A stretch of DNA of 64,000 nucleotides from Opitutales bacterium (GTDB lineage Bacteria > Verrucomicrobiota > Verrucomicrobiia > Opitutales > Oceanipulchritudinaceae): NCBI GenBank assembly GCA_020831525.1, contig JAFIGH010000012.1, forward strand, positions 1-64,000, in the 5' to 3' direction. Below the pieces are notes generated by a model. It was not told the origin of the DNA. It worked only from the letters and a program-made list of their open reading frames with translations, and made no database searches. Both the position numbers and the translations under genes were made by a program. The first letter of the stretch is position 1. Every line of letters starts with the position of its first letter. Shown piece by piece: positions 12,507 through 34,377 of the stretch.

Positions 12507-12512
12507 CTCCTT
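12507..12512 (-). promoter_or_regulatory. Shine-Dalgarno overlapping the giant gene's stop codon
   Basis: The minus strand reads TGAAGGAGATCTTTCGTATG. The first base of AAGGAG is the last base of the TGA that ends the 5,072-residue protein, and the next ATG follows nine bases later. Ribosomes finishing the giant protein would be placed to start the TolB-like protein, so the two are probably coupled. Confidence 0.75.
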
Positions 12513-18500: not shown

Positions 18501-21500
18501 CCGGCGACGGCGTTGTTCACCAGCGCAACCGTGCCGAGGGCGGGTGTCGCGCCCTCGACAACAAGACCTTCGCCGAAACGAACGGCCGTGTGTTCCAGCA
18601 CCGAGGCGCGCGCGGGATCGGCGAGGACCACGTGCCCCCAGTCACCGGCGAGCGGTGTCGTCCCCCCGCCCTCGGCGGCAGAGGTCAGCAGCACGGGATC
18701 GAGCGCGGTGCCCTGCGCGAGGAGGCGCCCTTCTTCAATTGTGAGCGATGTGCCCGGAGCAAATAGGAGCGTCGTGCCCGCAAGGATCGTGAGGTCCGCG
18801 CCCTCCGCCACGACAAGGCTTTCGAGAACCTCGACAACACCGGGCCCGAGCGTGAGTGAATCGGTGATCACCTCGGAGAGCGGATCCCGCCACGGCACGG
18901 AAACGACGGTGGCGTCGAAGGCGTCGAGCCGGTTGAAGGCGACCACGGCGAAATGCCTCGTCGATCCCCGCTCCAGCCCCTCGACAAGCAAGGTTTGCTC
19001 GCCCGGCGACAGCTCCGTTAGCACGGAGGACGCCGATACATCGGAGAACGGTTCCTCCGCCCAGTAGACGCGGTAGCCCGCGAGACCGCGGTAGTTGCCT
19101 TCCGGATAGGAAGACCAGTCGAGAAAGGCGGCGTCGGGCGCCGAAGCCGACACCGTAAGCGCCACCGGGTCCGGCAGATCACTCGCCATGGTAAAGGCAA
19201 AGGGCGTTACGCTCCCGAGAGCGTTGCCCGCTTGGTCGAGCCCCACGACCGCCGCCCAGTACGGAGTGTCGAGTTCGAGATCGGCCAGTGTGACGTCACG
19301 GCGGGTGCGCGACCGCGCGCCCACCGAATCCAGTCCCTCAAGCGCACTGAAAGGCTCCGCTTCAAGATAGACACGGAAGGATTGCAGGTCGGGCGGCGCA
19401 TCGTAGTCCGTCCACGACAAAATGGCTGTCGTCTCCGTGTAGTCCGCGAGGGTGAGGTCGACTGCGGGTGGAGGTTCGGTGTTGATGGTGAAGGTGAAGA
19501 CCTCTGCCGTCTCCATGACGCGGCCCTGCGTATCAGCGGCGTCCTTCACTTCGAGCCGGTAGAGACCGTCATCACCCGCCTCGATCACCGCCGGCGGAAA
19601 GCGGAAACGCGTCGCGCCGATCCATTCCCCGCCGGGGGGTATCGCGGCAAGGCTTTCCGCATCATCACTGAGCAATGTGCCCGCCGGCGAAACACCGCCG
19701 TCCATCGGGCGGTCGAAAGTGATCGTGATGACGTAGTCCGGGACCGACGACACGGGCGAGCGCCGGCTCGCCGAGGCCGCCGTGACGACGGGCAGGAAAC
19801 TCCGCGCCTGGTAGCGGGCGATAAAGTTCATTTCCGGCGGATCCGCCGTGGTGAGCAAACGGCTGATCTCCGGACTGGTGCTGAAGTTCGCGCCGTTGAG
19901 CCGGAAACGCTGGAAGACATACTCCGTTTCGCCCGCAACCACGGAGGGCGGAGCGCTGAGCGTGAGGGTCACGTTGTTGCCGTAAGTGCCCGCCCCGTCA
20001 ATGACAGCGATTCCCGCGGGGTCCGTCCCGACCGTGACCACGTGCTCCGGATTCGCTTCCGCGAAGACTGCCGTGAGCGCGCGCGGTCCCGTCAGTGTGA
20101 AAACGTAAGGGTTGTCTTCCGAGACGACCACGCCGTCCTCGCGCCAGGCTTCGAAGAGATAACCCATCGCCGGGTTTGCCTGAAGGGTCACGGTATCACC
20201 GTGCGGGTACACACCGCCGCCGCTGATTGTGCCGCCCCCGGCCACACTCGACGCCGTCGATACGGGATAATTCGGAAGGCCGAACTCCGCGACAAGGGAG
20301 CGGTCGCGCGTCACCGTGAACGAAAGCTCCGCCTTCGCACTGACGAAGCCCCCGCCTTCGGTCCAGCGGACGAAAAAATAGGGAAGCGCGCCGGTCTCGG
20401 GAGTGGCCGCGACCGTCGCGGTGGCGCCGAGGGCGAAAACGCCCCCGCCGGTGACAGAGCCACCGGCGGCAGGCGCTCCCGCAACGTCAACAGTGAAAAA
20501 GCTGTCTATGCTGAAGGTCGTTTCAAAGGTATTGCGCTCGGCGGCGAGGTGGCCGCTTTCGTTGAACTCGAAGACCTCGCCCAGCGCGTCGGCGATCACG
20601 CGGACGCGATAAACCCCGCCCTGCGCCGTCGTGATGACAGCCGACTGCGGAAGGGTCTCGTCCGGTGCGAGCGCAACTTCGACGGGTATCAGCTGGTTCG
20701 CGACGGCCTGCCCGCTGTCGACGCGGTTGACGACGAGCCGCTGGCTGTGTCCGGCTGGGGCGGTACCGAGCCACCGGTTCGCAAGGTTCCATGAAACCTG
20801 CCACTGCGACGTCCCTTCCACCGGCGCGGCAACGAGGTTTTCCACAACAAGATCCGGATAGACCCGCAAAGTCACTTCCAGCGGGTCCTCGGAAAAACCT
20901 GTGTTGTCACCGGAAAAGATAAACTCGTCCACAACGTTGCCGAAGTCCGTGTGGATCCCCACGTAGAAGGCACCCGCGAGGCCGTCGGGAACGCGGCCCG
21001 TGCCCTCGACAGTGTAGGACGCGCCCGCCGCCAGCCCGGTCCCGCGCGGCACATCAGCAAGGACAAAGACGGCCTCCGCCGCGAACGCCGGTCCGGACGC
21101 CAGCACCACCCGGTCGATCCATCCACCGGCGGGGATATCCGTGTTGCCGATATTCGCCACCGTGAACGTGAAGCCAAGGTCACCGCCTGAGAGCAGTGGG
21201 TCCGGCGCGGTAAACGCCACCTCAGTGACCACAAGATTCGCGAAGTCGGCGAAGTCCGACGGAGCGACAACCACATCCAGCGCATACGCGCTCGTCGGCC
21301 CCGCCGACGTGCCCGAAGCGCGTACCAGCGCGAAATAGTTCCCGGTGGCGGTCACCGTCACCTCGGCGGCGGCCCCTGCGGCGCTCCCGCTGTCGCGCGG
21401 CACGAGCGAACCGTCCTCACGGAAAAGGTCCACGACGGGCAGAAGCGGGCTGCCCTCCGGAAGCTGTGTGGAGAGGAAAACGGTGCGGCCCGCCTCGATC

Positions 21501-24500
21501 ACCCCGAGGTCGAAGTAGTCGAGATCGGCGGTTGTCCGGACACAGCCCGTTGCCGAGGCCGTGAAGACATCGTCACCGGACGATTCGAACGTGAGAGGCG
21601 TGGCCGTTTCGATGGTGCCGTTGGGTTCGGCTTCGAATTGTAGTGGAGGATGGGTACGGAGAACGGTGAACCGGTAGTCGCCGTTAAAGCTGTCCCACGG
21701 TTCCACACGCAGGATATAATCCCCCGTCTCCGGTAATACGAGGGCCTGCGGATCAAACGCGCCGCCCGTTCCGGAGTTGACAAAAAACAGCTCGCTGCCC
21801 GAGGGCGCGAGCAGCCGCCCCCGGTGGCGGCTGAAAGTCGGCGCACCCGGATTCACTCCGTCGATGAGAACATGGTCGCCCGCCTCACCGTCAAAGATCC
21901 AATAGTCGGTCTCGTCGCTTTCGACGAGATACCCGATGCCGCCGCCCGCGTAGAAGCCGGCGACATTCTCCGCCCACTGCACACGTGTGGCTGTTTCGGC
22001 TGAATCTCCCGGCCAATCTTCGACAGTGTAGAACGGGCGTTCAATGACCGTGAATTCGCGGGTGAAACTCGCCCCGAGGGGCAGGCCCCAGCGGTCGGTC
22101 AGCCCCGTGAAGACGGTCAGGCTGTAAAGTCCCTCCGGCAGGGGCGCCTCCGCAAACACATACTGCGCCTCCGGTCCGCCTGTATAGGGTTGCGGCACGA
22201 CCGCGAACAATGTGTCGCCGGGGCCGAAACCTACACCGTCGGCCGAGCGGCGGAGAAGGTACTGGCCGCCGTCGGCAATCGTATCCGGGTCCATATCGCC
22301 GCTGAATGTCAGGCTGAATCCGCGCAGGAGGGCGGTTGTCGGCGCATCTGGCAGTGACGAATCCACGACAAGCGGCGGCGCGGACGACGTGACGCTGATG
22401 TCAATGATGTAAGCTGCTTCGAGGCCGCGGAACGCGGCGTCGTCGAAGACGCGAAGGTAGACGGCGTCGCTGAATCCGCCGGGCGATGTCCAGACAAGCG
22501 GTCCGCCCGTGGCGGAGGCAAGGACCGCCCCGGAGGCGTCGCGCAATTCCATGCGGGGGCGCAGCGGACTCGTCGCCGTGTCCACCGGAAGCAACTCCAC
22601 CGTGGTCCCCGCACTGAGGTTTGCGATGAAGAAATAGTCGCCGGCAGTGTCTTCGCGGACGACCACGCCGCCGATACGCGCTTCATTGGCGGGCCGGTTG
22701 TCGCCGAAGACGACGACGTTGGCATTGGCGATATTGTTATTCGATTCCTCCTCCACTTGGATGCCCGGCGCAAAGAGCAATACGCCGAGGCGATAGGGAT
22801 CGCGGTTATTGTCCCGATCTTCCACCCGCAGGTAGTAGACTCCCGGATGCGGCAGCGGGGTCGTCGGTCCCTGTGTCTGGTCACTGCCGGTGGAATCATT
22901 GTGCAGCATCAATTGGTTGCCGCGGGAGTCGTAGAGGCGCACGCGCTTGCGATTGAAAGTGGGGCTGCTGAGCGTTTCGAACGTCGTCACCAACGTCGAC
23001 CCCGCCTCCGCCGTGAAGGCCCAATAGTCGAGGTCATCGGCGTCGGCCATGACACCCGCCGCCTGCGCCGTCGCAAGGTACGGGTTGGCCGCGTCAGCCT
23101 CGAGATCGTTGCGGGGCAGGCCGGGGAAGGTGTAGATCCGGTCGTTGGTGTAACCGGCGATGACGAGGGTCGGAAACGCGTCGCCGAAGGTCACGACATC
23201 GCCGGCGTAGGCCGTCCCGGCCACCGGATTATCTTGCGGCGGGGCAAACGCGATGGAGCCCGGCGCGGAACGGTTGTAGTGGATCGTCAGTCCGGCCGAG
23301 GCACTGCCCCCGGCGAGGAGATCGGGCCGTCCGTCGCCGCTGACATCCGCAACCGTCACCATATAGGCCGAAGTATTGCGCCCGAGAGGCACTTCGAGCG
23401 GAGCGCCCCACCCTTCCGGAGTGCCCGCGAAAACGGAAACCCGGTTCCCCGACTGGTAGGCAAGGATGAGGTCGTCGAAGCCGTCGCCATCGAGATCGGC
23501 GGCGTTGAGAAAATAGGGATTCGTGTCCGGCTCGAAGGACCATTCCTCGGAGAACGCCCCGCCGCCGAGGCCCCGGTAGTGGATGAGCGCCTGCGGAGAG
23601 ACACCGGAAACGACAAGATCATCAATGCCGTCGCCGTCAAAATCGCGCAGTAGGACGCCGCGCGGGCGCGTATCTGTCGCAAAAGGTGTCACGGTGAATC
23701 CGCCCTCTCCATCGTTGAAGAGGAACCACACCTGCTGTGCGGTCGTCTCCGCCGCCACGGCGAGGTCGGGCAAGCCGTTCTGGTTGAGGTCGCCCACGGC
23801 GATCTGCCGCTGGTTCGTCTCCGCCGGGTAGTCGACACGGTCGAAGAGGTTTCCGGGATCGCCCGTGTTCCAATAGATCGATACATAGGAGGCACTGAAG
23901 TGCGACACCGCAAGGTCGAGGCGCCCGTTGCCGTTGAGATCCACGGCCACAACGTCGTAGGGGCTGGAACCGGTCGACCATTGCAGCGGCTCGTCGAAAG
24001 TTCCGTCCGCCTGACCGGGATAAAGGAGGAGGGTGCTGCCGCTGTAGGTCACCACGGCGAGATCGGGATACCCGTTGCCGATAAGATCGCCGGTGGCCAT
24101 CCGCCACGGCCTGCCGGGCGCGTCGTAGGTCGGCCCGTTGCGGGCGTAACTGCCGCTGAACTCCGGAAGAATCTCCGGCCCGAGAGGATCGGCGGCAGCA
24201 AAAGAACTGTTGTCGCGGCTTTCCAACAGCACGCCCGGAAAGCCCTCTACAAAGAACGTGCGCTCGTAGACCGCTTCAAGGGTATTCCCCGCCGTGTCGG
24301 CGAGGGAATCCAGTCCGCGGAAACGGTAGTGGCCCGGTTGGAGCGGCCCGTCGACCACACGCAGTTGCACGGAGGTGCCCGCCGTGTAGGGTGCCACCGG
24401 TTGCACGGAGTACACTTCGTCATCCGCCGTATCCCATGCCCCGTCCGGTCCGGCGGCGCGCAGGTCGTAGGATGCGGCGGCATTGACTGTCGCCGGGTCC

Positions 24501-27500
24501 ATGTCCTCGGTGAAGGTCAGGGAAAAGCGGTCGTAGACGCCGACGAAGGTCGAGCCTTCCGCGGGCAACGTGTCCGCCACAATCTCCGGCGGCACGACGT
24601 TGGCGAGGCGAATCGTCAGCCGGTATTGGGAAAGCAGATCCAGTGTTCCGTCGTGGGCGCGCACACGCACGGCGTAAGCACCCGTCGCCCCGTCCGGCAC
24701 GGTGTATTCGAGGAGCGCCTGCCCCGGCTCGCCCTCCACCACCGGACCGACCGGCGGATGGATCTCAAGGAAGGGCGTCAGCGGAGAGGCCTCCGGGACA
24801 GCCAGCTCCAGCGTCAGCTCCGTCCCCGGACCCGGACTGCCGATGCGGAAGTAGTCGCCCGACGTGTCGCCCGGCGGCAGCGAGCCGAAGATGCGAGCCA
24901 CAGCCACCCCCGCCTCGTCGGCAAACTGCGCTTCATTGCCGGTGGCGGCACTGTTGTTGTTCTCCACTTCCAACTGGATCGGCTCGCGCACTACAGAAAC
25001 ACGGATACGGTACTCGCCGAAGTAACTGTCATGGCTGACGACGCGCAGCGCGAAAACGCCGCTCTCCGCCGCGATGAACTGTGACTGCAGGACGCCGCCC
25101 GATGTCGGTGCGAGTCCGTTGAAAAACTGGCTCCCGGAGGGATCAAGCAGTTGTACGCGGTTACGCGAAAAGGTGGCCGTAGACTGGCTTTGGTAGAGCA
25201 CCTGCACACGGTCGCCCGCCTCCGCCGCAAAGCTCCAGTAGTCCACATCGTCCGGATCGGCGCGGTAGCCGCGCCCCGCCCCCGCGAAGAGGGTCGGCAC
25301 CACCGGATCGGCGGCCAGTTCCGGACCTTCCGGGCCGAGGGGAGTTGCCGTGGCGAGCGTGTTGTTGTCCGGTGTTTCCAGCGTGTAGGGCTCGACGCCG
25401 ATGATCGTGAACTCCCGCGTGAAGGGTGCCTCAAGGGCGTTGCCGAAGCGGTCGCGGAGCACAGTATCCGCCGTGAAGCGGTAGGTGTCCGGCGGCAAGG
25501 GGCCGTCCGGAAGGAAAAGCGCGACGCTGGTCCCGTCAGTGTATGCGGAGACAACGGAAACGGTAAAGAGCGTGTCCGCGCCGGTGCCCCACGCCCCGTC
25601 GCCGCCCTGCCCGCGCATCTCAAAGGCCGCCGCATCGTTCACCGAATCCGGCAGCATGTCCTCGTCGAAGGACACTGTAAAGCGGTTGGGGAGCGCGTCA
25701 CTCGTTCCCTCGGGCAGGGTGACGCCCGTGACCAGCGGCGGCGTCCCGTCCTCGAGGTCGACGCGGAGACGGTACTCGGCGAGCAGGCCGGCGCTGCCGT
25801 CCACTGCTTCCACCCGCGCGAAATACGGTGGCACAGAAGTTTCGCCGAGGGTGTGCTCCAGCTCGTCGAGCCCGTCCGCCCCGGAAACAACAAGCGTGCC
25901 ATCACCGTTGTAGAGTCGCAGGCGCGGCACAAGTCCGCTGTGCGCGGGGTTCACGAGTTCGAGCCGGACGGTCGTCTCCGGCCCGAGGTTGGGCAGGCGG
26001 AAGTAATCGCCGTTGCTGTCGCCGATGCCGATGTTGCCCCATACGTCAGCCGTTTGCACCGCGCCGGTGAAAGGAAAGGAGAGCGTGTTCGCCTGATTGA
26101 CGGTGTTGTTGTTCTCCGACTCCAGTTGCGCGCCCGGCGGGAACGCGCTCACGCGGAACCGGTATTCGCCCGACCACGTCGAATCGTGCAGTTCGATGCG
26201 GACAAAGTAATTGCCCGCCGGAAGGTCGAAGTTGCTCTGCGACTGGTCTCCGCTGGTACTCGTGAGAAAGGTGGAAATCTGCGACTGTGCGTCGTCGTAG
26301 AGACGCACACGCACACGCGAAAACGTCACATGAGGACTCATCGTCTGGAGGGCGAGAATGATCCGCGCCGGTTCGTCGAGTGTGAACCGCCAAAAGTCCA
26401 GTTCATCGGTGGAGCGCATGAGACCGCGGCCGTGGGCGAACCGCAGGTCGGAGCCGAAGACGGCGTCCTCCGACAGTCCGATGGAGACCGCCGTAGCAAA
26501 GGAGTCGTTGCCGAAGGGCTCGACGATGAATGTGCCGAGCGATTCGACCGAGAATCCGCGCGAGAACGCCGCGACAAGAGCGTTGCCGAGGCGGTCGGAA
26601 ACACTGTCGTTCACAGTGAAGGCGTAGTCTCCGGCGAGAAGCGGTCCTTCCGCGATATTCAGCCGGACTGTCTCCGGATTGAGAAAAGAGGGCTCCAGCG
26701 TGAAGACCACGTCATCACCGGTACCAAAAACCCCGTCCTCCCCCGCACCCGTGAGACTGTAATTGGCGGCGTCCAGCGCCGTCGCGGGATCCATCGCTTT
26801 GTCGAATGCAACCGTGATGCGGCCCACGAGGCCTGTTGTCGCCAGCCCCTCCTCCGGCAGGTCCACCGAAACGACCTCCGGCGCGGTAGCGTCGGTTACC
26901 GAAACGGCCAGAAAATAATCCGCCTGCAAACTTGCCGCCGCCGAGGACACCACGAGGAAATGCCGTCCAGCCTCCACGACGGTGTGCGTCAGCCCGCCCG
27001 CGCTCTCGGCCACTATCTCGGATGCGCCCTCGCGCCGCAACGCCACACCGAAATCCTCCGCCGCAAGCGGTGAACCGGACCCCGGCACGAGCGTGACAGC
27101 GACCTCCGCGCCCGCGGAAAGGATGCCGAGGTCGAAAAAGTCGATGTCCCCGGACGGAGCCACCACGCCCGCCGCATGATGCGTGGCCGCCCCGCCCGAG
27201 CCCGCGAGGCCGAGCAGCGTCGCCGTTGCTTCCGTGCCGTTTGCCTCGATTTCCGGCTGCACGCCGCGGAACCGCTGCGCGAGGACACGGAAGGCGGAAG
27301 CGCTGCCCGTGAAGTGGACCGACAGTGTGTAGCTGCCGGGGGTGTCGAGCGTGACGGCTTGGATGCGCGTCAACCCCGACGGCAGCCCCGACCCGCTTCC
27401 CGAGACAAACACCGAGCCCGAAGGATTGAGCACCCGCACGTTGGGCGAACCGCTCGCACCGAGCCGCTCCAAGTAGAAAGTGTAGGTATCGCCCGGAGCC

Positions 27501-27730
27501 ACATCAAAGAGGAAAAACTCCGCCGCACCCGTCCCCGTCGCCGTCACCTCGCCTTCAAAAACCGAACGCGCGTAGCCCGGCGTCTCCTCCGTCGCCGCCC
27601 ACTCGATGAAGACATCGCCGAAGACGCCCGGCACGGCGGCGAAGGCCAACAGAACCAAAGACCGGCGGAACACATGGCCAACACAAATGATTTCACCAAG
27701 ACTACGGAGCAAAACGGGAAGAGAATTCAT
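12512..27730 (-). CDS. Giant 5,072-residue multidomain exoprotein with C-terminal Hint domain
   Basis: The chosen ATG (27730) precedes a signal segment, RRSLVLLAFAAVPGVFG; the frame also extends 22 codons further upstream to a TTG. Visible order: pre-peptidase-C-like beta domains alternating with SbsA-type Ig domains, four times (Ig anchors MDPAT/MLPDS/MDPAT/MDPDT near residues 311, 691, 1076, 1812); a VCBS/FG-GAP propeller (1208-1540) with six 'DLNGNGRLDLAV'-type blades; a CARDB-like domain (about 2160-2280); three divergent InlB repeats (about 2410-2615); FnIII-like domains; a right-handed beta-helix stretch (2960-3140, ending SGNWWGT); Ig/FnIII domains (3350-4020); two carboxypeptidase-regulatory-like domains (about 4290 and 4610); and a Hint domain (4915 to about 5050). 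No downstream toxin domain is present. Adhesin or surface scaffold is the likeliest role (inference). Confidence 0.9.
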   Translation of the reverse strand: MNSLPVLLRSLGEIICVGHVFRRSLVLLAFAAVPGVFGDVFIEWAATEETPGYARSVFEGEVTATGTGAAEFFLFDVAPGDTYTFYLERLGASGSPNVRVLNPSGSVFVSGSGSGLPSGLTRIQAVTLDTPGSYTLSVHFTGSASAFRVLAQRFRGVQPEIEANGTEATATLLGLAGSGGAATHHAAGVVAPSGDIDFFDLGILSAGAEVAVTLVPGSGSPLAAEDFGVALRREGASEIVAESAGGLTHTVVEAGRHFLVVSSAAASLQADYFLAVSVTDATAPEVVSVDLPEEGLATTGLVGRITVAFDKAMDPATALDAANYSLTGAGEDGVFGTGDDVVFTLEPSFLNPETVRLNIAEGPLLAGDYAFTVNDSVSDRLGNALVAAFSRGFSVESLGTFIVEPFGNDSFATAVSIGLSEDAVFGSDLRFAHGRGLMRSTDELDFWRFTLDEPARIILALQTMSPHVTFSRVRVRLYDDAQSQISTFLTSTSGDQSQSNFDLPAGNYFVRIELHDSTWSGEYRFRVSAFPPGAQLESENNNTVNQANTLSFPFTGAVQTADVWGNIGIGDSNGDYFRLPNLGPETTVRLELVNPAHSGLVPRLRLYNGDGTLVVSGADGLDELEHTLGETSVPPYFARVEAVDGSAGLLAEYRLRVDLEDGTPPLVTGVTLPEGTSDALPNRFTVSFDEDMLPDSVNDAAAFEMRGQGGDGAWGTGADTLFTVSVVSAYTDGTSVALFLPDGPLPPDTYRFTADTVLRDRFGNALEAPFTREFTIIGVEPYTLETPDNNTLATATPLGPEGPELAADPVVPTLFAGAGRGYRADPDDVDYWSFAAEAGDRVQVLYQSQSTATFSRNRVQLLDPSGSQFFNGLAPTSGGVLQSQFIAAESGVFALRVVSHDSYFGEYRIRVSVVREPIQLEVENNNSAATGNEAQFADEAGVAVARIFGSLPPGDTSGDYFRIGSPGPGTELTLELAVPEASPLTPFLEIHPPVGPVVEGEPGQALLEYTVPDGATGAYAVRVRAHDGTLDLLSQYRLTIRLANVVPPEIVADTLPAEGSTFVGVYDRFSLTFTEDMDPATVNAAASYDLRAAGPDGAWDTADDEVYSVQPVAPYTAGTSVQLRVVDGPLQPGHYRFRGLDSLADTAGNTLEAVYERTFFVEGFPGVLLESRDNSSFAAADPLGPEILPEFSGSYARNGPTYDAPGRPWRMATGDLIGNGYPDLAVVTYSGSTLLLYPGQADGTFDEPLQWSTGSSPYDVVAVDLNGNGRLDLAVSHFSASYVSIYWNTGDPGNLFDRVDYPAETNQRQIAVGDLNQNGLPDLAVAAETTAQQVWFLFNDGEGGFTVTPFATDTRPRGVLLRDFDGDGIDDLVVSGVSPQALIHYRGLGGGAFSEEWSFEPDTNPYFLNAADLDGDGFDDLILAYQSGNRVSVFAGTPEGWGAPLEVPLGRNTSAYMVTVADVSGDGRPDLLAGGSASAGLTIHYNRSAPGSIAFAPPQDNPVAGTAYAGDVVTFGDAFPTLVIAGYTNDRIYTFPGLPRNDLEADAANPYLATAQAAGVMADADDLDYWAFTAEAGSTLVTTFETLSSPTFNRKRVRLYDSRGNQLMLHNDSTGSDQTQGPTTPLPHPGVYYLRVEDRDNNRDPYRLGVLLFAPGIQVEEESNNNIANANVVVFGDNRPANEARIGGVVVREDTAGDYFFIANLSAGTTVELLPVDTATSPLRPRMELRDASGAVLASATGGPLVWTSPGGFSDAVYLRVFDDAAFRGLEAAYIIDISVTSSAPPLVVDSSLPDAPTTALLRGFSLTFSGDMDPDTIADGGQYLLRRSADGVGFGPGDTLFAVVPQPYTGGPEAQYVFAEAPLPEGLYSLTVFTGLTDRWGLPLGASFTREFTVIERPFYTVEDWPGDSAETATRVQWAENVAGFYAGGGIGYLVESDETDYWIFDGEAGDHVLIDGVNPGAPTFSRHRGRLLAPSGSELFFVNSGTGGAFDPQALVLPETGDYILRVEPWDSFNGDYRFTVLRTHPPLQFEAEPNGTIETATPLTFESSGDDVFTASATGCVRTTADLDYFDLGVIEAGRTVFLSTQLPEGSPLLPVVDLFREDGSLVPRDSGSAAGAAAEVTVTATGNYFALVRASGTSAGPTSAYALDVVVAPSDFADFANLVVTEVAFTAPDPLLSGGDLGFTFTVANIGNTDIPAGGWIDRVVLASGPAFAAEAVFVLADVPRGTGLAAGASYTVEGTGRVPDGLAGAFYVGIHTDFGNVVDEFIFSGDNTGFSEDPLEVTLRVYPDLVVENLVAAPVEGTSQWQVSWNLANRWLGTAPAGHSQRLVVNRVDSGQAVANQLIPVEVALAPDETLPQSAVITTAQGGVYRVRVIADALGEVFEFNESGHLAAERNTFETTFSIDSFFTVDVAGAPAAGGSVTGGGVFALGATATVAATPETGALPYFFVRWTEGGGFVSAKAELSFTVTRDRSLVAEFGLPNYPVSTASSVAGGGTISGGGVYPHGDTVTLQANPAMGYLFEAWREDGVVVSEDNPYVFTLTGPRALTAVFAEANPEHVVTVGTDPAGIAVIDGAGTYGNNVTLTLSAPPSVVAGETEYVFQRFRLNGANFSTSPEISRLLTTADPPEMNFIARYQARSFLPVVTAASASRRSPVSSVPDYVITITFDRPMDGGVSPAGTLLSDDAESLAAIPPGGEWIGATRFRFPPAVIEAGDDGLYRLEVKDAADTQGRVMETAEVFTFTINTEPPPAVDLTLADYTETTAILSWTDYDAPPDLQSFRVYLEAEPFSALEGLDSVGARSRTRRDVTLADLELDTPYWAAVVGLDQAGNALGSVTPFAFTMASDLPDPVALTVSASAPDAAFLDWSSYPEGNYRGLAGYRVYWAEEPFSDVSASSVLTELSPGEQTLLVEGLERGSTRHFAVVAFNRLDAFDATVVSVPWRDPLSEVITDSLTLGPGVVEVLESLVVAEGADLTILAGTTLLFAPGTSLTIEEGRLLAQGTALDPVLLTSAAEGGGTTPLAGDWGHVVLADPARASVLEHTAVRFGEGLVVEGATPALGTVALVNNAVAGLAVGPGARVESTGLFIAENVLGVRVHSSGEAEITGSVIKNNATQVDIEGGAVNDFSGNWWGTSDSSAIADGWSGAVNGGGPLDSEPLLSAGVAVVGGAETTGSRNITLRLASLNAESFRVSENSIFTGAVFNEFPRDPWTDGVFLVGSADFPFRLSATGGVKTVFVQFRSLTGMLGDPVQVEIELITEGPVIDSFNLAEGIEISRPVDVAAEASAVLGLTSLRFQVNEADVLSSTTGWLAGRWDPRGLPGGIYRVRALATDAAGNEASREVNVVVAPTPPPAPVITSPVADTFLNVPTVPVSGTAEPGVTVRLTRNNALQGTVAAAPDGTFSFVEVALEEGRNTLVAAAVDSLGSTVSAPVDVFLDTGPPAPVVLEEPVYRPGAGLSLQWRYAEEGERAVAFAVVWDTAPFASAAAAANRSETVTHLSEILRGLADGTYWIAVVGLDQAGNESDLSNVVIVEYDGTAPAFTIAYDRTAPVGPGDLGITLTASEPLALTPSLTIRPAGMQAPVSVPLTAAGGLTYTATYAVTDLSARTGQAQVLVSARDLAGNVFNGAPQGPNLVFDVTRPTGIVNVGEPPPVRTAQPVALEVGLTLSKPAPAGSPPSLRFSPPQGDVLQIALTGQGPNWTGTLTLGPSQGDGIGSFLLETVDAAGNLGTSITAGADLELFTTEFPPPPGRPAGLTATTLKGGEIAVSWQPVEKAEVYNIYRTAGFTAEPPETLLVGGLTGTAFTDLPPEDGLWSYVVTASRRGAEGLPSGILEGLSDRTPPPPPVNVSAVLGDAGVSVTWQAPEGEVPALYHVYRNGTRIRTVQTSAGIVDSPPRGLLVYEVASVDAVGNEALSAPAEIEMFVDAVTGLEAIIETGGTARLTWESDDPSATGFNVYRNGTLLTPAPLSAPLFQDSAAPETAAFEYTVRAVNADGQQSAPRVVAVHPVEWTLLVNVDAAGDVVDPVIYYFDRYDVALANIDPTRALDISAFQLDRFPAAGDVVSHTRAVNLTAPPGGIAETALVLPTALVPDQPQNLRVRAVHEAAGGSRVLYETTAEVGDAVERTDMITLAPREVPLAGGLTDFGVTVHNLGLSSLDIVITRANGAEPGDFFISVLDVSGAEVARHYATGAISGLAVRPNGDGVLSVSPGASASFTVRNILVPEALGEGGEAAFTATAEVVYNAIGQPHQQVAGPLTGQVESSLVEAPYFGTSAASKDVYTNTEPVVITGQAVDRETGDPVPEVPLRIGIASGAHTWSVSVETDEDGNYVFEYLPPSGFSGRMRFWASHPDVVDRLDQTEIEYYRLFFNPALGDIVMSRADTLDFTLRVVNPGDLAITGIALESMAFIIDGDDNEIPVDTLSVDFAQTPPETLGARAQRNLRFRLTSTINAPDEALLSMKLTTAEGAEAEFLAQVSLRPAVPILSVTSPADGFVNVSVDRDGLVSRDVTLTNLGLRALEGVELIPPAEVPWFDVNLPRDSEDRIHLPDVPVGGNLTFSVVFTPPEDTDLGFFNDFLVIKGENAESDFEFGLFARVTSALSGDVEFIVDNLLLDPVPNASIRMRNNDLRAEVGPRTTDAEGRVLFEGLQEGEWFWQAGASGHSPRSGIVTVQADEVTPVEVTLDRALVTVNFTVVPRPFTDRYDIVIEQTFETRVPFPVLVIDPPSVFFDDVEPGFETTILSTFRNEGLIAMRNVDIRGMSIGHASLIPLITFIPELAPQEVVEVPMRFTIHGLPGSGGIDPAGLGSPGGRVKQCLRDVLVPGSAGDLATILNAVANSDVYSASGISRPVGASLIAGAELFSAATANPAILIGMIVGCASAAFTSPATGGRSSQSPGPGVNYSGGGFGCFPGDTPVETADGSFVPIADLSEGMWVRTGDGPRERARVLEHIEIRSDHLLHIDMVSVRDPDRRRSVSITGPHRVWTDHAGWLPALDLAPGDRLHGRDRAVYRIETIRREEGAFTVYNLELDRANSMYAGGILVQDQCGGWNLPSSPVLSQTPAAGNP
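12581..12988 (-). other. Hint (intein/hedgehog-type) domain at the end of the giant protein
   Basis: The block starts CFPGDTPVETADGSFVPIAD, the standard Hint N-terminus with the nucleophilic cysteine (residue 4915). It continues with a block-B-like TGPH inside VSITGPHRVWTDHAGW and with LDLAPGDRL. It ends VYNLELDRANSMYAGGILVQD. The Cys, Thr and His needed for an N-S acyl shift and N-terminal cleavage are present. The usual terminal His-Asn is replaced by Gln-Asp, so protein splicing or C-terminal cleavage is unlikely. About 20 residues follow (QCGGWNLPSS...). The likely outcome is release or transfer of the N-terminal portion, as proposed for bacterial intein-like and pre-toxin Hint domains. 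Confidence 0.85.
21950..27100 (-). repeat. Four tandem PPC/SbsA-Ig supermodules encoded in the giant gene
   Basis: A unit of about 380-385 residues recurs four times. Each copy has an 'ESENNNTVNQANTL'-type pre-peptidase-C domain, a second lobe with 'GDYFRLPNLGPETTV', and an Ig domain with 'DEDMLPDSVNDAAAFEMRG'. Anchors on the minus strand are near 26795, 25657, 24502 and 22292. The first two spacings are about 380 and 385 residues; the third is about 735 because a propeller is inserted. Confidence 0.7.
23110..24105 (-). other. FG-GAP/VCBS beta-propeller inserted between supermodules 3 and 4
   Basis: About 330 residues carry six calcium-loop motifs: DLIGNGYPDLAV, DLNGNGRLDLAV, DLNQNGLPDLAV, DFDGDGIDDLVV, DLDGDGFDDLIL and DVSGDGRPDLLA. 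A seventh degenerate strand follows (GDAFPTLVI). This is the pattern of a seven-bladed integrin-alpha-like propeller, which in known proteins binds ligands or carbohydrates with calcium. Confidence 0.75.
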
Positions 27731-27929
27731 GGACCAGATGTAATTTGAAATACCACCGGCTTCTGCCTTGAGACGTAAGGCTTGTGCTCCAGCCAAAATA
27801 GCGGACTTTGAGGATTTACGCCATACGCAAATGCGCGTAGGGAATTCACCTCACGCGTGTTCATCCGGCTGCTCCGGAATCGAGCCAAACCCACGCCAAA
27901 ACCGAATGGTGCCCGCTTTCGTCGCGCTT

Positions 27930-28002
27930 CCGGCGCCCCTTCAGGGCGCAACTGCGGGACGATTCCGGCAACCCATGGTTGGGCACCATGGGCTGTCACC
28001 GT
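27930..28002. repeat. Left inverted arm of the repeat locus
   Basis: About 72 bp, beginning CCGGCGCCCCTTCAGGGCGC and ending at CCATGGGCTGTCACCG. Its reverse complement recurs with small indels at 28428-28493. The arm itself contains two short hairpins, around GCGCCC...GGGCGC and CCCATGGTTGGGCACCATGGG. Confidence 0.75.
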
Positions 28003-28090
28003 TCGCGCCGTTGGCGCGGGGTCGTCCCGGTGGTGTCCGCCGCGCCCTGCGGGAAACCGCCACACGGTTGCACCGCAACGTAGCGGCATT

Positions 28091-28426
28091 GGCTCGAACG
28101 CGGAACGGGCCTCCCACCCGATGTCTGCGCGCGAACGCCTTGTGCAATGACGGCTCATCCCTCCGGTGCGGGCGGTCGGTTGCGCCCCGAGGGGGCGGCA
28201 ATGGTTCGAACGCGGAACGGGCCTCCCGCCCGATGTCTGCGCGCGAACGCCTTGTGCAATGACGGCTCATCCCTCCGGTGCGGGCGGTCGGTTGCGCCCC
28301 GAGGGGGCGGCAATGGTTCGAACGCGGAACGGGCCTCCCGCCCGATGTCTGCGCGCGAACGCCTTGTGCAATGACGGCTCATCCACCTACGGCGCGGGGC
28401 GGACGCTTGCGCCCCGAAGGGGCGGC
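28091..28426. repeat. Three tandem copies of a 112-bp repeat
   Basis: Units run 28091-28202, 28203-28314 and 28315-28426. Copies 1 and 2 differ at two positions that I can see. Copy 3 matches copy 2 for about its first 70 bases and then diverges, keeping a compensated GCCCC-GAA-GGGGC hairpin where copy 2 has GCCCC-GAG-GGGGC. A degenerate half-unit precedes copy 1. The units contain no long reading frame of their own. Confidence 0.85.
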
Positions 28427-28427
28427 G

Positions 28428-28493
28428 GGTGAAAGCCCATGGTGCCAACCATGGGTCGCCGGTTCCGAATGTCCGCGCCCTGAAGGGCGCCGG
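28428..28493. repeat. Right inverted arm of the repeat locus, with two strong hairpins
   Basis: This arm is the reverse complement of the left arm at 27930-28002. It holds CCCATGGT-gcca-ACCATGGG (28436-28455, 8-bp stem) and GCGCCC-tgaa-GGGCGC (28475-28490, 6-bp stem with a UGAA tetraloop). Confidence 0.75.
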
Positions 28494-28722: not shown

Positions 28723-31700
28723 ATGGAACCTGTCCTTCACCGACGCGTAAACTGTCCCGATCGATCGCCGTGGGCAGGGCTGAATTCACAAAATAAATTC
28801 GCAATAAATCCAATACTTCGGACAAAGACGCCGCTGCGTCCAGCCGCCACACGGAGTGCTGCACACTTGTTTACTGTCCTGTTTCTTTTCTTTCTCGCTC
28901 CGCGTGTTGAAGCGGCCCAAAACGTCGTCGGAGCGAATGCGCTGGTCTTCAACTACACCGCACCGGCCTACATCATCGACTCCGACGCCGAGGTCAGCCA
29001 CAGCGCCTACACACGGAACCTTATTCCCCTGCGCTGCACTGCGGTGTTCATCGGCACCACTTCCGGGTTTGAAACGCAAACCTACCGAGCCGGATTCAGG
29101 ATGCTCGACATGGACACCGGGCAGGCCGTCCCCGTGGCCGGAGGCGGCACCAACCAGCGCATCTTTTCGTCCGCGCAAACCGTGACCACCTTCTCAAATA
29201 TTCCCATCAGCGCAACATTCAACGTCCAAGCGAATCCCAGTGTCCGACTGGACCCGTACAAACGCTACCAAGTGGAGGTGATCATACAGCGGCGCGAATC
29301 AAGCGGCGGCATCAACTTCTGGGTGACCGCCCACTCCACAGTCTCCGCCGAAGACTACGGTTTCATCCATTTCACCGGTCCGCGGGCCATTGACTCGGCG
29401 CTCAATATTGTTTCCTCGCTCAACTCGGTCGTCATTTCCCGGCGGCACCTCATCGAGACGGACCCGACGGCGGTCACTTTCGCGGCGAACGTCAACTTCA
29501 CCCTCCACCGCTACGACAACCCGACCCAGCCCCAACCGCTGGGCCAGACCGAAGTCGTCGTGCGCCTTGATCTCGAACTCCTCGCAAGAAGTCCCGATTT
29601 TCAGGTGACGGTTATTCCGCTGCAGAGCGATGTCGTCACGCTCTCACCGGGACCGCTGATCGCTCCGCACGCGAAGGTGGGCTCACTGCCGGCCGAGGTT
29701 CCCGTGAGCCTGACTTCGACACGCACCATTCAGTTCCGCGCGCCGCCCGGAGTCGAGATCGACCCGGTCACCCACGATTACGCCCTGCGGGTGCGCATCA
29801 CGCACCTTGAGGATTTCGACGGCTTCACCCCGGTCTTCGCCGTCGGAAACACCGAGCGCTCCGTCTTCGGCCCGCTTCTTCACTTTAACGGATCGCTGCG
29901 CTTCGGCGACATCATGACGACGATGCAGAGCGTGTCCAATGTGAACATCGGCGGCACAACAATCCACCCGCCCACCCACGCCCGCGTGCCGCTGACCTTC
30001 GCCCCCAATGGCGGCTATATCAACGACGCTCCGGGCTACACCTACGGTCCGGGGAGTCTCGCCGTCCACCTCCTGCCCAACGGCGACGCCGAGGTCGCTC
30101 CGGGCGGATCGGTCAACCTCGTGCCGCCCGCCTCGCCCGACCATTCGTTCGTGGCCGGCGTCCGCTACACCCGCGCTCTCACGACACTTTCCGGAAGCGG
30201 CGCTTCGACCGCGAGAATCGACGTGCGCCTCCCTGCCGGATTCGGTTGGATGCACGACAAGAGCGACCGTACTCTCAACGGCTTCATCCACATGGAAGGA
30301 CCGCTTCCCCTCAAGCCCGACCTCACTCCTGTCGAGGAGGTCTACGGGTTCGTTCCGGACGACGGCGGCCCGATGTGGGTTTCAGAGGAGACGACCCCCG
30401 TCATTGTCAATGTATCCAAAATCGAGTGGTATGTCGCCGAAGGCCGCTTTGCCCTCCCGCCGGCCCAATCGAACGAAGTCCTCCATGTGCGGACCGCCCA
30501 CTACAACGCTCTTGCCGGATACGGGTTCCTGCCCGCCAACATGCGGATCAAGCGCTCGAACGACCAGTACTGGCACCTCGTCACCTCCGTCGACAGCGAC
30601 CTCTCCGTACGTGCGGGCCACGAAGGCGGCGCCGAACTGAGCGGCACCTTCCATCTCGCCGCCCCCGGCAATGGATGGCGTATCGACACACACTTTCCGC
30701 ACGGCGCCTACTTCGTCATGGCAGACGGCATGATCCGCATTGAAGACGACCGCGTCGTACCCGCCGAAAGCATACTCACGACCGCCGCGACGTTCCCCAA
30801 CGTCTTCGTCCCCGTAAGTTCCGACTGCGTCCATCCGTCGTGCGGCACGGTATCCAGTCCCGCCATCCACATTGCCCCGGTGGACCGCGCGCTCCGCTTC
30901 ACCGAAGACGGGGGCCTCGTCGGCGCGGGGCCCGTCGGCGGATCAGGCGGCTACCCGCTTGAGTGGGGACGCATACCGGGGTTGAATCGATTTGCCCACA
31001 AGACGGACCCATTCACGGAGGGGAACCTCCACATACCCGGTCACTTTCTGCCCGGAGGCATCTCCCCTGTGCCTTTGGCGCGCCGGCCCGCGGTCATTCT
31101 CTTTTCCGGGGCGACCACCGCCGGGATGGTCACGGAGCGTCCCCCGGGGTTCCAGTTCACACTCAGTTCCTACCATTTCGGCAACGCCGATTACGCGGGC
31201 ATCAACTTCCGCGCCGGAGCGCCCCGCGACGCCGCCGACAGCGGCATGCTCGGCGAAAGCACTCTCGGGGGCGGAGCCTACGGTCCCTACTCGCTCAAGC
31301 GGCGGTCCAAATACTACGTGCGCAAGAGCGGTATCTCCGGGATCCACGACAAGGTCCAGACCAGCCCCGAAACGGTATTCATCAGCGGATACGAGTTCAC
31401 CTTCCTGAACTTCGGCCTTGCCTTCCTCAGCAATGTGAATGTCGACAGCCGCACGGAAGGCAGCCTCCGCCTTCCCTACCCGAGCGACTACACCATCGAC
31501 TTCGAGCGGCTCCGCTTTCTCTGCAACGGCGCGCTCGACAAGGCCGATGTCGCGGGCGGCATCCAGCAGCATACGGCGGCCTACTGGAACGCCCTCCTCA
31601 ACGTCAGCGCGATTTCCTTCCAACGCGATCCGGCACAGCTTTGCAATCCTTCCGAAGGATTCCTCGCCCTCGGCGTCACCACGTATGCCGCCCATGTCGA

Positions 31701-34377
31701 AGACGAATTCGACGGGGTTCTCGGCGTCTTTCCGCACGGCAACCTGATCCCGAAGAACGGCGGACCCGCCGACCTCGACTCGCGGCTCATCGCGCCTTCG
31801 CAGGTGCGCATCCGCGGCCCCCGCCGCGCCGCGCCCGGTGCCACCGGGTTCGAGACCTACACCGTCACGCCCACCAGCGGTGCCTTCCTCAACGTCCTCG
31901 GCACCCAGGCCGGCGGCTACGTCTTCCCGCATCCCCCGCCGCCCGCTTCCCCGCCGGGCTCACTCGCGCAGGGCTTCATGAACGTGCCGGGACTTGTCCG
32001 CGTGTCCTTCTTCGAAGCCCTCGAAGGGCACCTGCAAATGCCGTCCATTCCGCCCCCGGAGGATCCCGCCGAAGATCCCGCCGGGTGGGGTTCGGCCATG
32101 CTGCACATCTCGAACGGCACATGGGGTTCGACCGGTTTCTTCATGCCCGGCTACCACGATCCCGACAACCGTGGATTCCCTGGAAACACCCACACACAAC
32201 TCGACAACTACCGCACGGGCGACGCCCACCGCACACGCGCCAAACAGAAGTGGCTCAACGGCGCGATCTCCTTCGATTTCCCGCTTCTCTGGGATTTCGC
32301 CACGCGTTCGTTCCGCTCCCACCAGCCCGTGAAAGACGACTTCGTCGTCCTGACACTGGAGCAGCGCGTCGCCTACCTCAGCGCGGAGCGCGCTGAGGTG
32401 CGCTTCGGGGCACAGGCGGGGCTTCCGCAGATCAATCTCGCCAACTTTGTCATCAACACACTCGACGACCTCACCGGCGTCTCCGCCACCCTCGCAGGCG
32501 CCCTCGAAGCATTGATCGTCGGTCAGCTCGACACCGGCCTCGGCCGCCTCGACGACATCCTCGCCGACCACAAGACGGGCCACTACGAGAATCTTCTCGG
32601 CACCCAACTCGACGCCATCACCAACCACGTCTACAACTTCCTGCACAACCAGTGGAACAACGGCACACAATGGCCGGTGAGTTTCCTCGCTGACTTTGAG
32701 AACCAATACAGCGACGGATTCCTCAACACCATGATCTGGGGCGGCCTCAGCGGCGCGAACCAAGCAGCCGAACTCCAGAATGCCCTCAACGCCGCCATCG
32801 CCGCCGTCGACGAAGTCATCGGCACGGGGATCGGCGGCGGCCTGCTACCCGCCGCGGGCAGCACCGACGCGGTGCGTTCACTCGCCGCCGCGCTCGTGCG
32901 CGAACTCGCCGGATCGATCAACAGCAACCTCGCTGGAGTCGTCGGCGGGGCCGCCGAGAGCGTTCTTAACGAAATGCTCGCGCCCCACCTCAACACCGCC
33001 GCGCCCACGTTCGCCGACCTTCGTGTCGGTCTCGAGGAAATCCGAGCCGCCCTCGTGACGACGCGCAACCGCCTCAACGCCGGAGGCGACTTCCGCGCGC
33101 AGTTGCAACAGCAATACCTCTCCGCCCTCAGCGCCGAGTTTCCCGGCGTCAGCCAGACCGTACGCAACGACCTCGCCACCTACGTCGGCACCTTCAATGC
33201 CACCAACCGTTTTCATTGGGCGGGCGAGGCGGTCGTCAAACAGAAGATCCGCCGCGCTTTCACCGACCGGCTCTACGGCACCGAATACGTCGCCGCCACA
33301 CAGACCACCGTCAAACACCGCGTCTTCGATATCAACACCAGCCTGCGCAGCGCTCTCGGCTCGGCTTTCGGACAGGTCAATGAGGTCGTGCGCGCCACCC
33401 TCACCGCCGCCCTCACCGACCTCGACACCGGCTTCGCCCCCGTTCTCGGCCTCTTCAGCGACTTCATGGGCAGCGCCGGGATCGACGGCTACGCCATCTT
33501 CAACGGCAACGCTCTCCGCCAGGTCCGCATCGACGGCAAGTTCCAGTGGTCCGTGCCGGAGAAGACGACGTTCTCCGCCTTCCTCGAAATCAACCAATAC
33601 GAATCCGGATCGGACAAGCCGCCCTGCGGCGACATGGGCAAGGACGCCGCAGAGGTCATCCTCGGCGCGCACAACGTCCCGTGCGACTTCCTCAGTCCGG
33701 ACATGCGCGTCAACATTGAGACGAAGTTCTCCTTCGAGATCGAGAACGGCATGCTCGTCCCCATCGGATTCGCCGGTTCGTTCGTCATGACGGAGGGCGA
33801 GGTCTCTTTCCAGGCTTTTACCATCACCGACCTCGCCGTCGCGGTAGCTTTCGGCAAATACGAGAACTACCTCAGCGCGGCGCTCGGACTGCGCTTCAAC
33901 GGCTACAAAGCAAAGGGCGGCATCTTCTTCGGTCGCACCTGCACACTTATGCCCATCATGGCATGGGACATGTTTGTCGCCGCTGCCCTCGGTATGCCCG
34001 ACGATACTTTCACCGGCGCCTACGTCTACGGCGAGTGCCACATCCCCGTCTCCCAGGTCCTTCTCGGCATCCCCGCAAGCTGCGTGTTCCAAGTCTCCGC
34101 CGGCATGGGCATGGGCATGTTTTACTTCATCGAAGGGCCGACCTACGGCGCGCGCGGTATGCTCTCCGTCTCCGGCGACGCACTCTGCCTCTTCAGTATC
34201 GGCGGGAGTATGGACCTCGTCGGACTCAAGCAAGGGAACAAGTTCAAGGTCAAAGGAAAGGGCACGTTCTACGTCGAGTTCGGGGTCTGCCCCTTCTGCT
34301 TCAAGGGGAACAAAACCGTCCACATTTCCGCCGAGGCCGGAGGCGGCAGCATGTCCGGCGGCAAGGTAAGGGATTGA
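28723..34377 (+). CDS. Large exported protein of unknown family (1,884 residues)
   Basis: I do not recognise this protein. The likely export signal AHLFTVLFLFFLAPRVEAAQ ends about 65 residues after the first ATG, so it has either a long N-region or a later non-ATG start; no Shine-Dalgarno settles this. Residues about 65-1200 are beta-rich with repeated 'GFIHFTGP'- and 'GFIHMEGP'-like strands. Residues about 1235-1580 are predicted helical (ALEALIVGQLDTGLGRLDDI, then LRVGLEEIRAALVTTRNRL). The last 300 residues are Gly- and aromatic-rich beta strands with about ten cysteines, including GVCPFCF. No catalytic motif is visible. It opens a three-gene operon diverging from the giant Hint protein; the next gene starts 3 bp after its stop. 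Confidence 0.8.
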   Translation: MEPVLHRRVNCPDRSPWAGLNSQNKFAINPILRTKTPLRPAATRSAAHLFTVLFLFFLAPRVEAAQNVVGANALVFNYTAPAYIIDSDAEVSHSAYTRNLIPLRCTAVFIGTTSGFETQTYRAGFRMLDMDTGQAVPVAGGGTNQRIFSSAQTVTTFSNIPISATFNVQANPSVRLDPYKRYQVEVIIQRRESSGGINFWVTAHSTVSAEDYGFIHFTGPRAIDSALNIVSSLNSVVISRRHLIETDPTAVTFAANVNFTLHRYDNPTQPQPLGQTEVVVRLDLELLARSPDFQVTVIPLQSDVVTLSPGPLIAPHAKVGSLPAEVPVSLTSTRTIQFRAPPGVEIDPVTHDYALRVRITHLEDFDGFTPVFAVGNTERSVFGPLLHFNGSLRFGDIMTTMQSVSNVNIGGTTIHPPTHARVPLTFAPNGGYINDAPGYTYGPGSLAVHLLPNGDAEVAPGGSVNLVPPASPDHSFVAGVRYTRALTTLSGSGASTARIDVRLPAGFGWMHDKSDRTLNGFIHMEGPLPLKPDLTPVEEVYGFVPDDGGPMWVSEETTPVIVNVSKIEWYVAEGRFALPPAQSNEVLHVRTAHYNALAGYGFLPANMRIKRSNDQYWHLVTSVDSDLSVRAGHEGGAELSGTFHLAAPGNGWRIDTHFPHGAYFVMADGMIRIEDDRVVPAESILTTAATFPNVFVPVSSDCVHPSCGTVSSPAIHIAPVDRALRFTEDGGLVGAGPVGGSGGYPLEWGRIPGLNRFAHKTDPFTEGNLHIPGHFLPGGISPVPLARRPAVILFSGATTAGMVTERPPGFQFTLSSYHFGNADYAGINFRAGAPRDAADSGMLGESTLGGGAYGPYSLKRRSKYYVRKSGISGIHDKVQTSPETVFISGYEFTFLNFGLAFLSNVNVDSRTEGSLRLPYPSDYTIDFERLRFLCNGALDKADVAGGIQQHTAAYWNALLNVSAISFQRDPAQLCNPSEGFLALGVTTYAAHVEDEFDGVLGVFPHGNLIPKNGGPADLDSRLIAPSQVRIRGPRRAAPGATGFETYTVTPTSGAFLNVLGTQAGGYVFPHPPPPASPPGSLAQGFMNVPGLVRVSFFEALEGHLQMPSIPPPEDPAEDPAGWGSAMLHISNGTWGSTGFFMPGYHDPDNRGFPGNTHTQLDNYRTGDAHRTRAKQKWLNGAISFDFPLLWDFATRSFRSHQPVKDDFVVLTLEQRVAYLSAERAEVRFGAQAGLPQINLANFVINTLDDLTGVSATLAGALEALIVGQLDTGLGRLDDILADHKTGHYENLLGTQLDAITNHVYNFLHNQWNNGTQWPVSFLADFENQYSDGFLNTMIWGGLSGANQAAELQNALNAAIAAVDEVIGTGIGGGLLPAAGSTDAVRSLAAALVRELAGSINSNLAGVVGGAAESVLNEMLAPHLNTAAPTFADLRVGLEEIRAALVTTRNRLNAGGDFRAQLQQQYLSALSAEFPGVSQTVRNDLATYVGTFNATNRFHWAGEAVVKQKIRRAFTDRLYGTEYVAATQTTVKHRVFDINTSLRSALGSAFGQVNEVVRATLTAALTDLDTGFAPVLGLFSDFMGSAGIDGYAIFNGNALRQVRIDGKFQWSVPEKTTFSAFLEINQYESGSDKPPCGDMGKDAAEVILGAHNVPCDFLSPDMRVNIETKFSFEIENGMLVPIGFAGSFVMTEGEVSFQAFTITDLAVAVAFGKYENYLSAALGLRFNGYKAKGGIFFGRTCTLMPIMAWDMFVAAALGMPDDTFTGAYVYGECHIPVSQVLLGIPASCVFQVSAGMGMGMFYFIEGPTYGARGMLSVSGDALCLFSIGGSMDLVGLKQGNKFKVKGKGTFYVEFGVCPFCFKGNKTVHISAEAGGGSMSGGKVRD

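Follow-up and report, generated by a model that had tools for sequence, protein, structure and literature searches.

The question raised by the block at positions 27931-28492 of the window, by which the whole 64-kb stretch of DNA is meant, is what kind of element places tandem repeats between two long inverted arms in the space separating divergent genes. To the left of the block lies an open reading frame of 5094 amino acids (12512-27796, - strand) and to the right one of 1884 amino acids (28723-34377, + strand), in agreement with the location between divergent genes given in the preliminary description. The left-hand protein is predicted to be secreted and carries FG-GAP, Big, PPC, CARDB and fn3 domains together with a weak Hint/Vint match near the C-terminus. 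The right-hand protein, also predicted to be secreted, has no Pfam match; many homologs of 1800-2200 aa are found in relatives (G002, G006).

Each arm is composed of three hairpins. In the left arm (L, 27931-28020, + strand), the outermost hairpin Hp1 (27933-27949, +) reads GCGCCC-CTTCA-GGGCGC and is seen in the sequence, in the covariance model R1 and in the single-stranded DNA fold. Hp2 (27972-27992, +) has the form CCCATGGT-TGGGC-ACCATGGG and is followed by a CT that is nearly invariant in the arm family, while Hp3 (28004-28018, +), of the GCGCCGTTGGCGC type, is recovered by R1 and by the single-stranded DNA fold. The right arm (R', 28408-28492, - strand) shows the order Hp3'-Hp2'-Hp1' when read on the + strand and ends in the outermost right hairpin Hp1' (28475-28490, -), supported by R1 and by the single-stranded DNA fold. 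The two arms are about 77% identical to each other as reverse complements, and both fold better than shuffled sequence as single-stranded DNA (z -3.2 for the left arm and -2.8 for the right). They are the only two matches to R1 in the 64-kb window, with 39.2 bits (E 3.2e-9) for the left and 31.7 bits (E 3.7e-7) for the right. The spacer from Hp3 to Hp3', termed core A (28021-28089, +), is also present in the copies C103, C18, C78 and C25 of this genome, and the order of the window copy is L-A-R', with Hp1 outermost and Hp3 adjoining the core. Across the family an arm measures about 88 nt, with some 20-30 nt from Hp1 to Hp2 and 10-14 nt from Hp2 to Hp3. Inverted arms of about 70 bp with two hairpins of the CCCATGG and GCGCCC types had been reported earlier; the arms and both hairpin types are real, but the length was slightly understated and the count of hairpins is three, Hp3 included.

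Related arms occur about 40 times in this genome, and a search with the block already showed them at many places. They lie on many contigs, adjoin unrelated genes and usually lack the tandem core, so that a unique locus-specific element is ruled out. The preliminary description had held that arms at many unrelated sites with no tandem core would reduce the block to a common repeat family. This is the situation observed, and by that description's own criterion the block belongs to a dispersed repeat family, though one that proves informative. Two arm subfamilies can be distinguished. The first has CCATGG in Hp2 (the window, C103, C110, C18, C78, C25, C87 and others), and the second has an Hp2 of the GGCC or CCCAGGG type (C83, C170, C175, C112 and C125). 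Successive arms point in alternating directions and are separated by spacers of two kinds, A and B, an organisation resembling that of bacterial interspersed mosaic elements (BIMEs). Both arrangements occur in this genome, namely Hp1 outermost (L-A-R') and Hp3 outermost (R'-x-L). At C103:32886-33841 the whole 535-bp element is present in two tandem copies, which recalls the tandem REPIN clusters of Pseudomonas (PMC3116915).

Only two full-length IS200-type Y1 transposases are encoded in the genome (C78 and C83). Both are intact open frames and both lie inside arm arrays; the C78 gene is flanked by arms of the window's sequence type, the one on its 3' side being incomplete. This cognate TnpA is a single-domain Y1/HUH protein, about 151 aa long, that bears the signature DH[IV]H, WQ and Y---Q--HH. 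The C78 and C83 proteins score 59.5 and 55.1 bits against the NCBIfam IS200/IS605 model NF033573 (cut-off 55), the TnpA profile matches the solved structures of IS608 and ISDra2 TnpA (PDB), and the HUH motif and catalytic tyrosine of a Y1 HUH transposase of the IS200/IS605 group are present in both. Residues H56, H58 and Y116 are invariant. The Y...Q..HH motif is found in these two proteins and in 80 of 80 homologs of the C78 protein, which were taken from public genomes of Verrucomicrobia, Planctomycetes, Acidobacteria, Bacteroidetes, Ignavibacteria and others. The genome (G000) also contains about 45 places matching PF01797, for example L095:685-1749 (-); they represent a large expansion of a different Y1-type protein of roughly 350 aa with an NHFH motif, which matches just the first half of PF01797; a similar set occurs in G006. 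These proteins were rejected as the cognate enzyme, since R1 arms were found at none of the 28 such loci tested in this genome.

The association between arms and transposase extends well beyond this genome. The model R1 was built from the alignment A1, consisting of 25 arms (85-94 nt) situated downstream of TnpA genes in other organisms, with none from this genome. An R1 arm lies within 220 bp at 78 of the 80 TnpA loci, which belong to many phyla: 71 have one upstream, 62 downstream and 55 on both sides, counts that are not fully independent because related sequences occur among the loci. Upstream arms, all outside the R1 training set, have the inverted sense in 69 of 77 cases, and a downstream arm is present at 37 of the 55 TnpA loci held out of training. 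In relatives from the same order, arms accompany 8 of 9 subclass-1.2 loci (the TnpA class considered below) vs 0 of 11 other Y1 loci. Among 240 genomes of the phylum, 45 have both arms and TnpA, 14 arms only, 8 TnpA only and 173 neither (Fisher p 5e-28, with kinship ignored), and the four genomes of the phylum with IS200-1.1-like matches alone have no arms. A variant arm with a long Hp2 loop (e.g. CCCAGGGCTTGCTCGTTCCTCGCAGCGCCCTGGG) and a larger Hp1 is present downstream of tnpA at L123, L124, L131, L132 and L147; it is scored weakly by R1 and may thus be a subtype.

The right arm is also the sole Rfam match in the 64-kb window. Its Hp2' and Hp3' (28410-28455, -) match RF01687, Acido-Lenti-1, with 39.9 bits against a gathering score of 37; the left arm is absent from the RF01687 matches at the gathering threshold, and 36 matches are found in the genome at E <= 1. 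Since Weinberg et al. 2010 (PMC2864571) counted Acido-Lenti-1 among the likely RNAs, the arms might be taken for a structured RNA, acting as an sRNA or as a cis-regulator of the neighbouring genes. Besides the score itself, strong covariation in the stems favours this explanation. In A1, change on both sides was found in 15 of 18 pairs, with 81 such cells vs 17.5 in shuffles, and the signal is destroyed when the pairing partners are slid; the slid control favours this structure because it was derived from A1 itself, and the effect is nevertheless large. Unpaired positions are conserved as well: the two letters of the CT behind the 3' foot of Hp2 are kept in 136 and 141 arms out of about 146, and a conserved T follows Hp1.

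The kind of mismatch tolerated in the stems points in the other direction. An RNA under selection should accept G-U on its own strand much more readily than A-C. Among 2179 stem cells of 146 arms, counted without loop-closing pairs, there were 13 G-T and 26 A-C mismatches (p 0.05); the loop-closing positions were left out because they dominate the count over all pairs (15 G-T vs 94 A-C). Furthermore, the arms come as inverted pairs, flank a transposase gene and are dispersed beside unrelated genes, and RF01687 takes in only the inner 46 nt (Hp2 and Hp3), two of the three conserved hairpins, leaving Hp1 outside. Indirectly, the lack of a G-U preference, the arrangement as inverted pairs and the association with a transposase favour selection on DNA over selection on RNA. 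The structured-RNA explanation, which had also been put forward in the preliminary description, is accordingly disfavoured and deserves little credence. In other phyla too (Acidobacteria, Bacteroidetes and others), the inner part of arms beside TnpA genes scores beyond the RF01687 threshold. No link between RF01687 and a transposase, TnpA subclass 1.2 included, was found in the literature searched, and as far as that literature shows, the link to subclass 1.2 is new.

The extent of the mobile unit can be approached in the relative G021 (1.3 Mb). One TnpA gene was detected there (C149), framed by arms. A copy of the element lacking tnpA has about 100 matches in G021 when both strands are counted. 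At 54 distinct ends, conservation runs across Hp3 and continues for another 13 bases (TTAWGTGTGGTTT), after which similarity is lost, an edge as expected of a mobile unit. These ends indicate that the unit in G021 is Hp3'-Hp2'-Hp1'-x-Hp1-Hp2-Hp3, where x is tnpA or a short linker. The best-bounded units, those of G021, and most TnpA genes have Hp3 outermost (R'-x-L), opposite to the window copy. What characterizes a MITE is short copies that lack the transposase gene but have the same termini as an autonomous element in their own genome, and this is what is observed: in G021 many short copies have the ends of the one TnpA element, and the window's own genome contains two TnpA genes alongside about 40 arms. 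Copies in G021 (e.g. L208 and L221) often lie at contig ends and so probably break the assembly.

The homologs of the right-hand gene that relatives carry led to no orthologous empty site for the window copy. These homologs are 31-42% identical, the left neighbour, where examined, is different, and no arms are nearby; they are too distant to be used as true empty sites. The sequences examined revealed neither a target nor a cleavage site, and no transposition event.

The position of the block between divergent starts and the stable hairpins formed by its arms could also suggest a domesticated large cruciform or BIME that acts in supercoiling, binds gyrase or insulates the promoters of the two genes from each other. 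REP and BIME repeats are described as binding sites of host proteins (PMC2817692). Nevertheless, copies lie beside unrelated genes in this genome, and where relatives have a homolog of the right-hand gene, no arms lie nearby. Such a role would in any case be compatible with an origin from a transposon, and as the explanation of the block it appears quite improbable.

The tandem units occupy 28090-28426 (+), where three units of 112-115 bp are each closed by an Hp3'-like hairpin. TRF reports a single 112-bp array in the window (28083-28426, 3.0 copies, 95% matches, score 605), and a repeat search gives three in-register copies starting at 28065 with a spacing of 112 bp, which bears out the three near-identical units first described. 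In the genome search, the three-unit array was seen at the window locus only; C103 has one related unit and C110 has traces. The units show no excess of folding over shuffles (z +0.25, -0.48 and -0.49), and they were rejected as structured RNA on this ground. They are best read as a local expansion of the element core, distinct from the mobile unit, and would most likely have arisen when a piece of the spacer was duplicated locally in tandem along with the Hp3' hairpin, probably through slippage or unequal recombination at hairpins. The hairpin kept in the third copy had been taken as a hint of selection or gene conversion; it is the right arm's own Hp3', so neither process is needed within the array. 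That the function resides in the array itself (e.g. as iterons or as binding sites of a protein) and that the arms are incidental has almost no probability, high identity of the units notwithstanding, given that the three-unit array was found only at this locus, that its units lack excess structure and that the arms rather than the units are conserved between copies and across phyla.

The preferred reading of the block as a non-autonomous mobile element can be compared with known systems. Dispersed inverted pairs of palindromes, their mosaics, tandemly repeated clusters (PMC3116915) and a Y1 transposase gene lying among the repeats are shared with REP, REPIN and BIME systems and their RAYT (TnpA-REP, class 2). 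In contrast to RAYTs, the Y---NP motif is absent here and replaced by Y---Q--HH, and the score against REP_Tyr_transpos is 20.4 bits, far from the cut-off of 80. The GT[AG]G foot of REP hairpins is absent as well; instead, CT follows the 3' foot of Hp2 in a three-hairpin arm of about 88 nt. Motif, score and foot sequence together rule out a classic GTAG REP with RAYT. The element works like a REPIN/BIME or an IS200-derived element, while its repeat is no GTAG REP and its transposase no RAYT.

With the IS200/IS605 elements and their non-autonomous derivatives (PATEs), the element has in common a transposase passing the NCBIfam cut-off and matching IS608 and ISDra2 TnpA, as well as the tnpA-less copies. 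IS608-type elements have a single subterminal hairpin at each end, whereas inverted three-hairpin arms are found here. TIRtrons (TIRYT; Di Nocera et al. 2013, PMC3733652) likewise have long inverted repeats on both sides of a Y1 transposase gene; some of these repeats are self-complementary and some form repeat families. The described TIRYTs, however, fall into subclasses 2.1, 2.2 and 2.5 according to Quentin et al. (PMC6006769), vs 1.2 here.

TnpA-Y1 subclass 1.2 was described by Quentin et al. 2018 (PMC6006769) mainly from Cyanobacteria and Bacteroidetes, with no REP and generally no terminal IS200 structures. The C78 and C83 proteins show the traits of this subclass (~148 aa, DH[IV]H, WQ and Y---Q--HH), and low copy number is shared as well. 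The subclass is encountered here in Verrucomicrobia, Planctomycetes, Acidobacteria and others, and with a conserved cognate three-hairpin repeat, which departs from the description of the subclass as having no associated REP or terminal structures. We propose the arm association as a correction to that description and not as a defining property of the protein.

Taken together, the block is very probably a non-autonomous BIME/MITE-like element of a Y1 (HUH) transposon family, formed by two three-hairpin DNA arms and with the little-studied TnpA subclass 1.2 as its cognate transposase. The mobile nature suggested in the preliminary description is thus supported, now with a transposase family assigned. 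Movement of the block in trans by a transposase of the subclass 1.2 type is the best reading. By analogy with IS608 and ISDra2, TnpA would bind the arm hairpins on single-stranded DNA, such as the lagging-strand template, and would cut and rejoin one strand. Autonomous units built as arm-tnpA-arm could spread in this way, and so could short ones without tnpA.

An explanation is hereby offered for an Rfam family that has been without one since 2010. With moderate confidence, Acido-Lenti-1 can be regarded not as an RNA but as the DNA end of Y1 transposons that form a lineage apart. Their TnpA subclass 1.2 would recognise a composite three-hairpin inverted arm rather than a single subterminal hairpin, and their non-autonomous elements may have been seeded across many bacterial phyla. 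The arm resembles RF01687 in its inner 46 nt, which score above the gathering threshold here and at TnpA loci; it is longer by a third hairpin, Hp1, and occurs as inverted pairs around a transposase gene. The proposed reading suggests that RF01687 matches are better annotated as ends of mobile elements than as sRNA genes, and it provides an example of strong covariation arising in DNA elements. A class of HUH transposases that had been described as lacking any cognate repeat is thereby given one.
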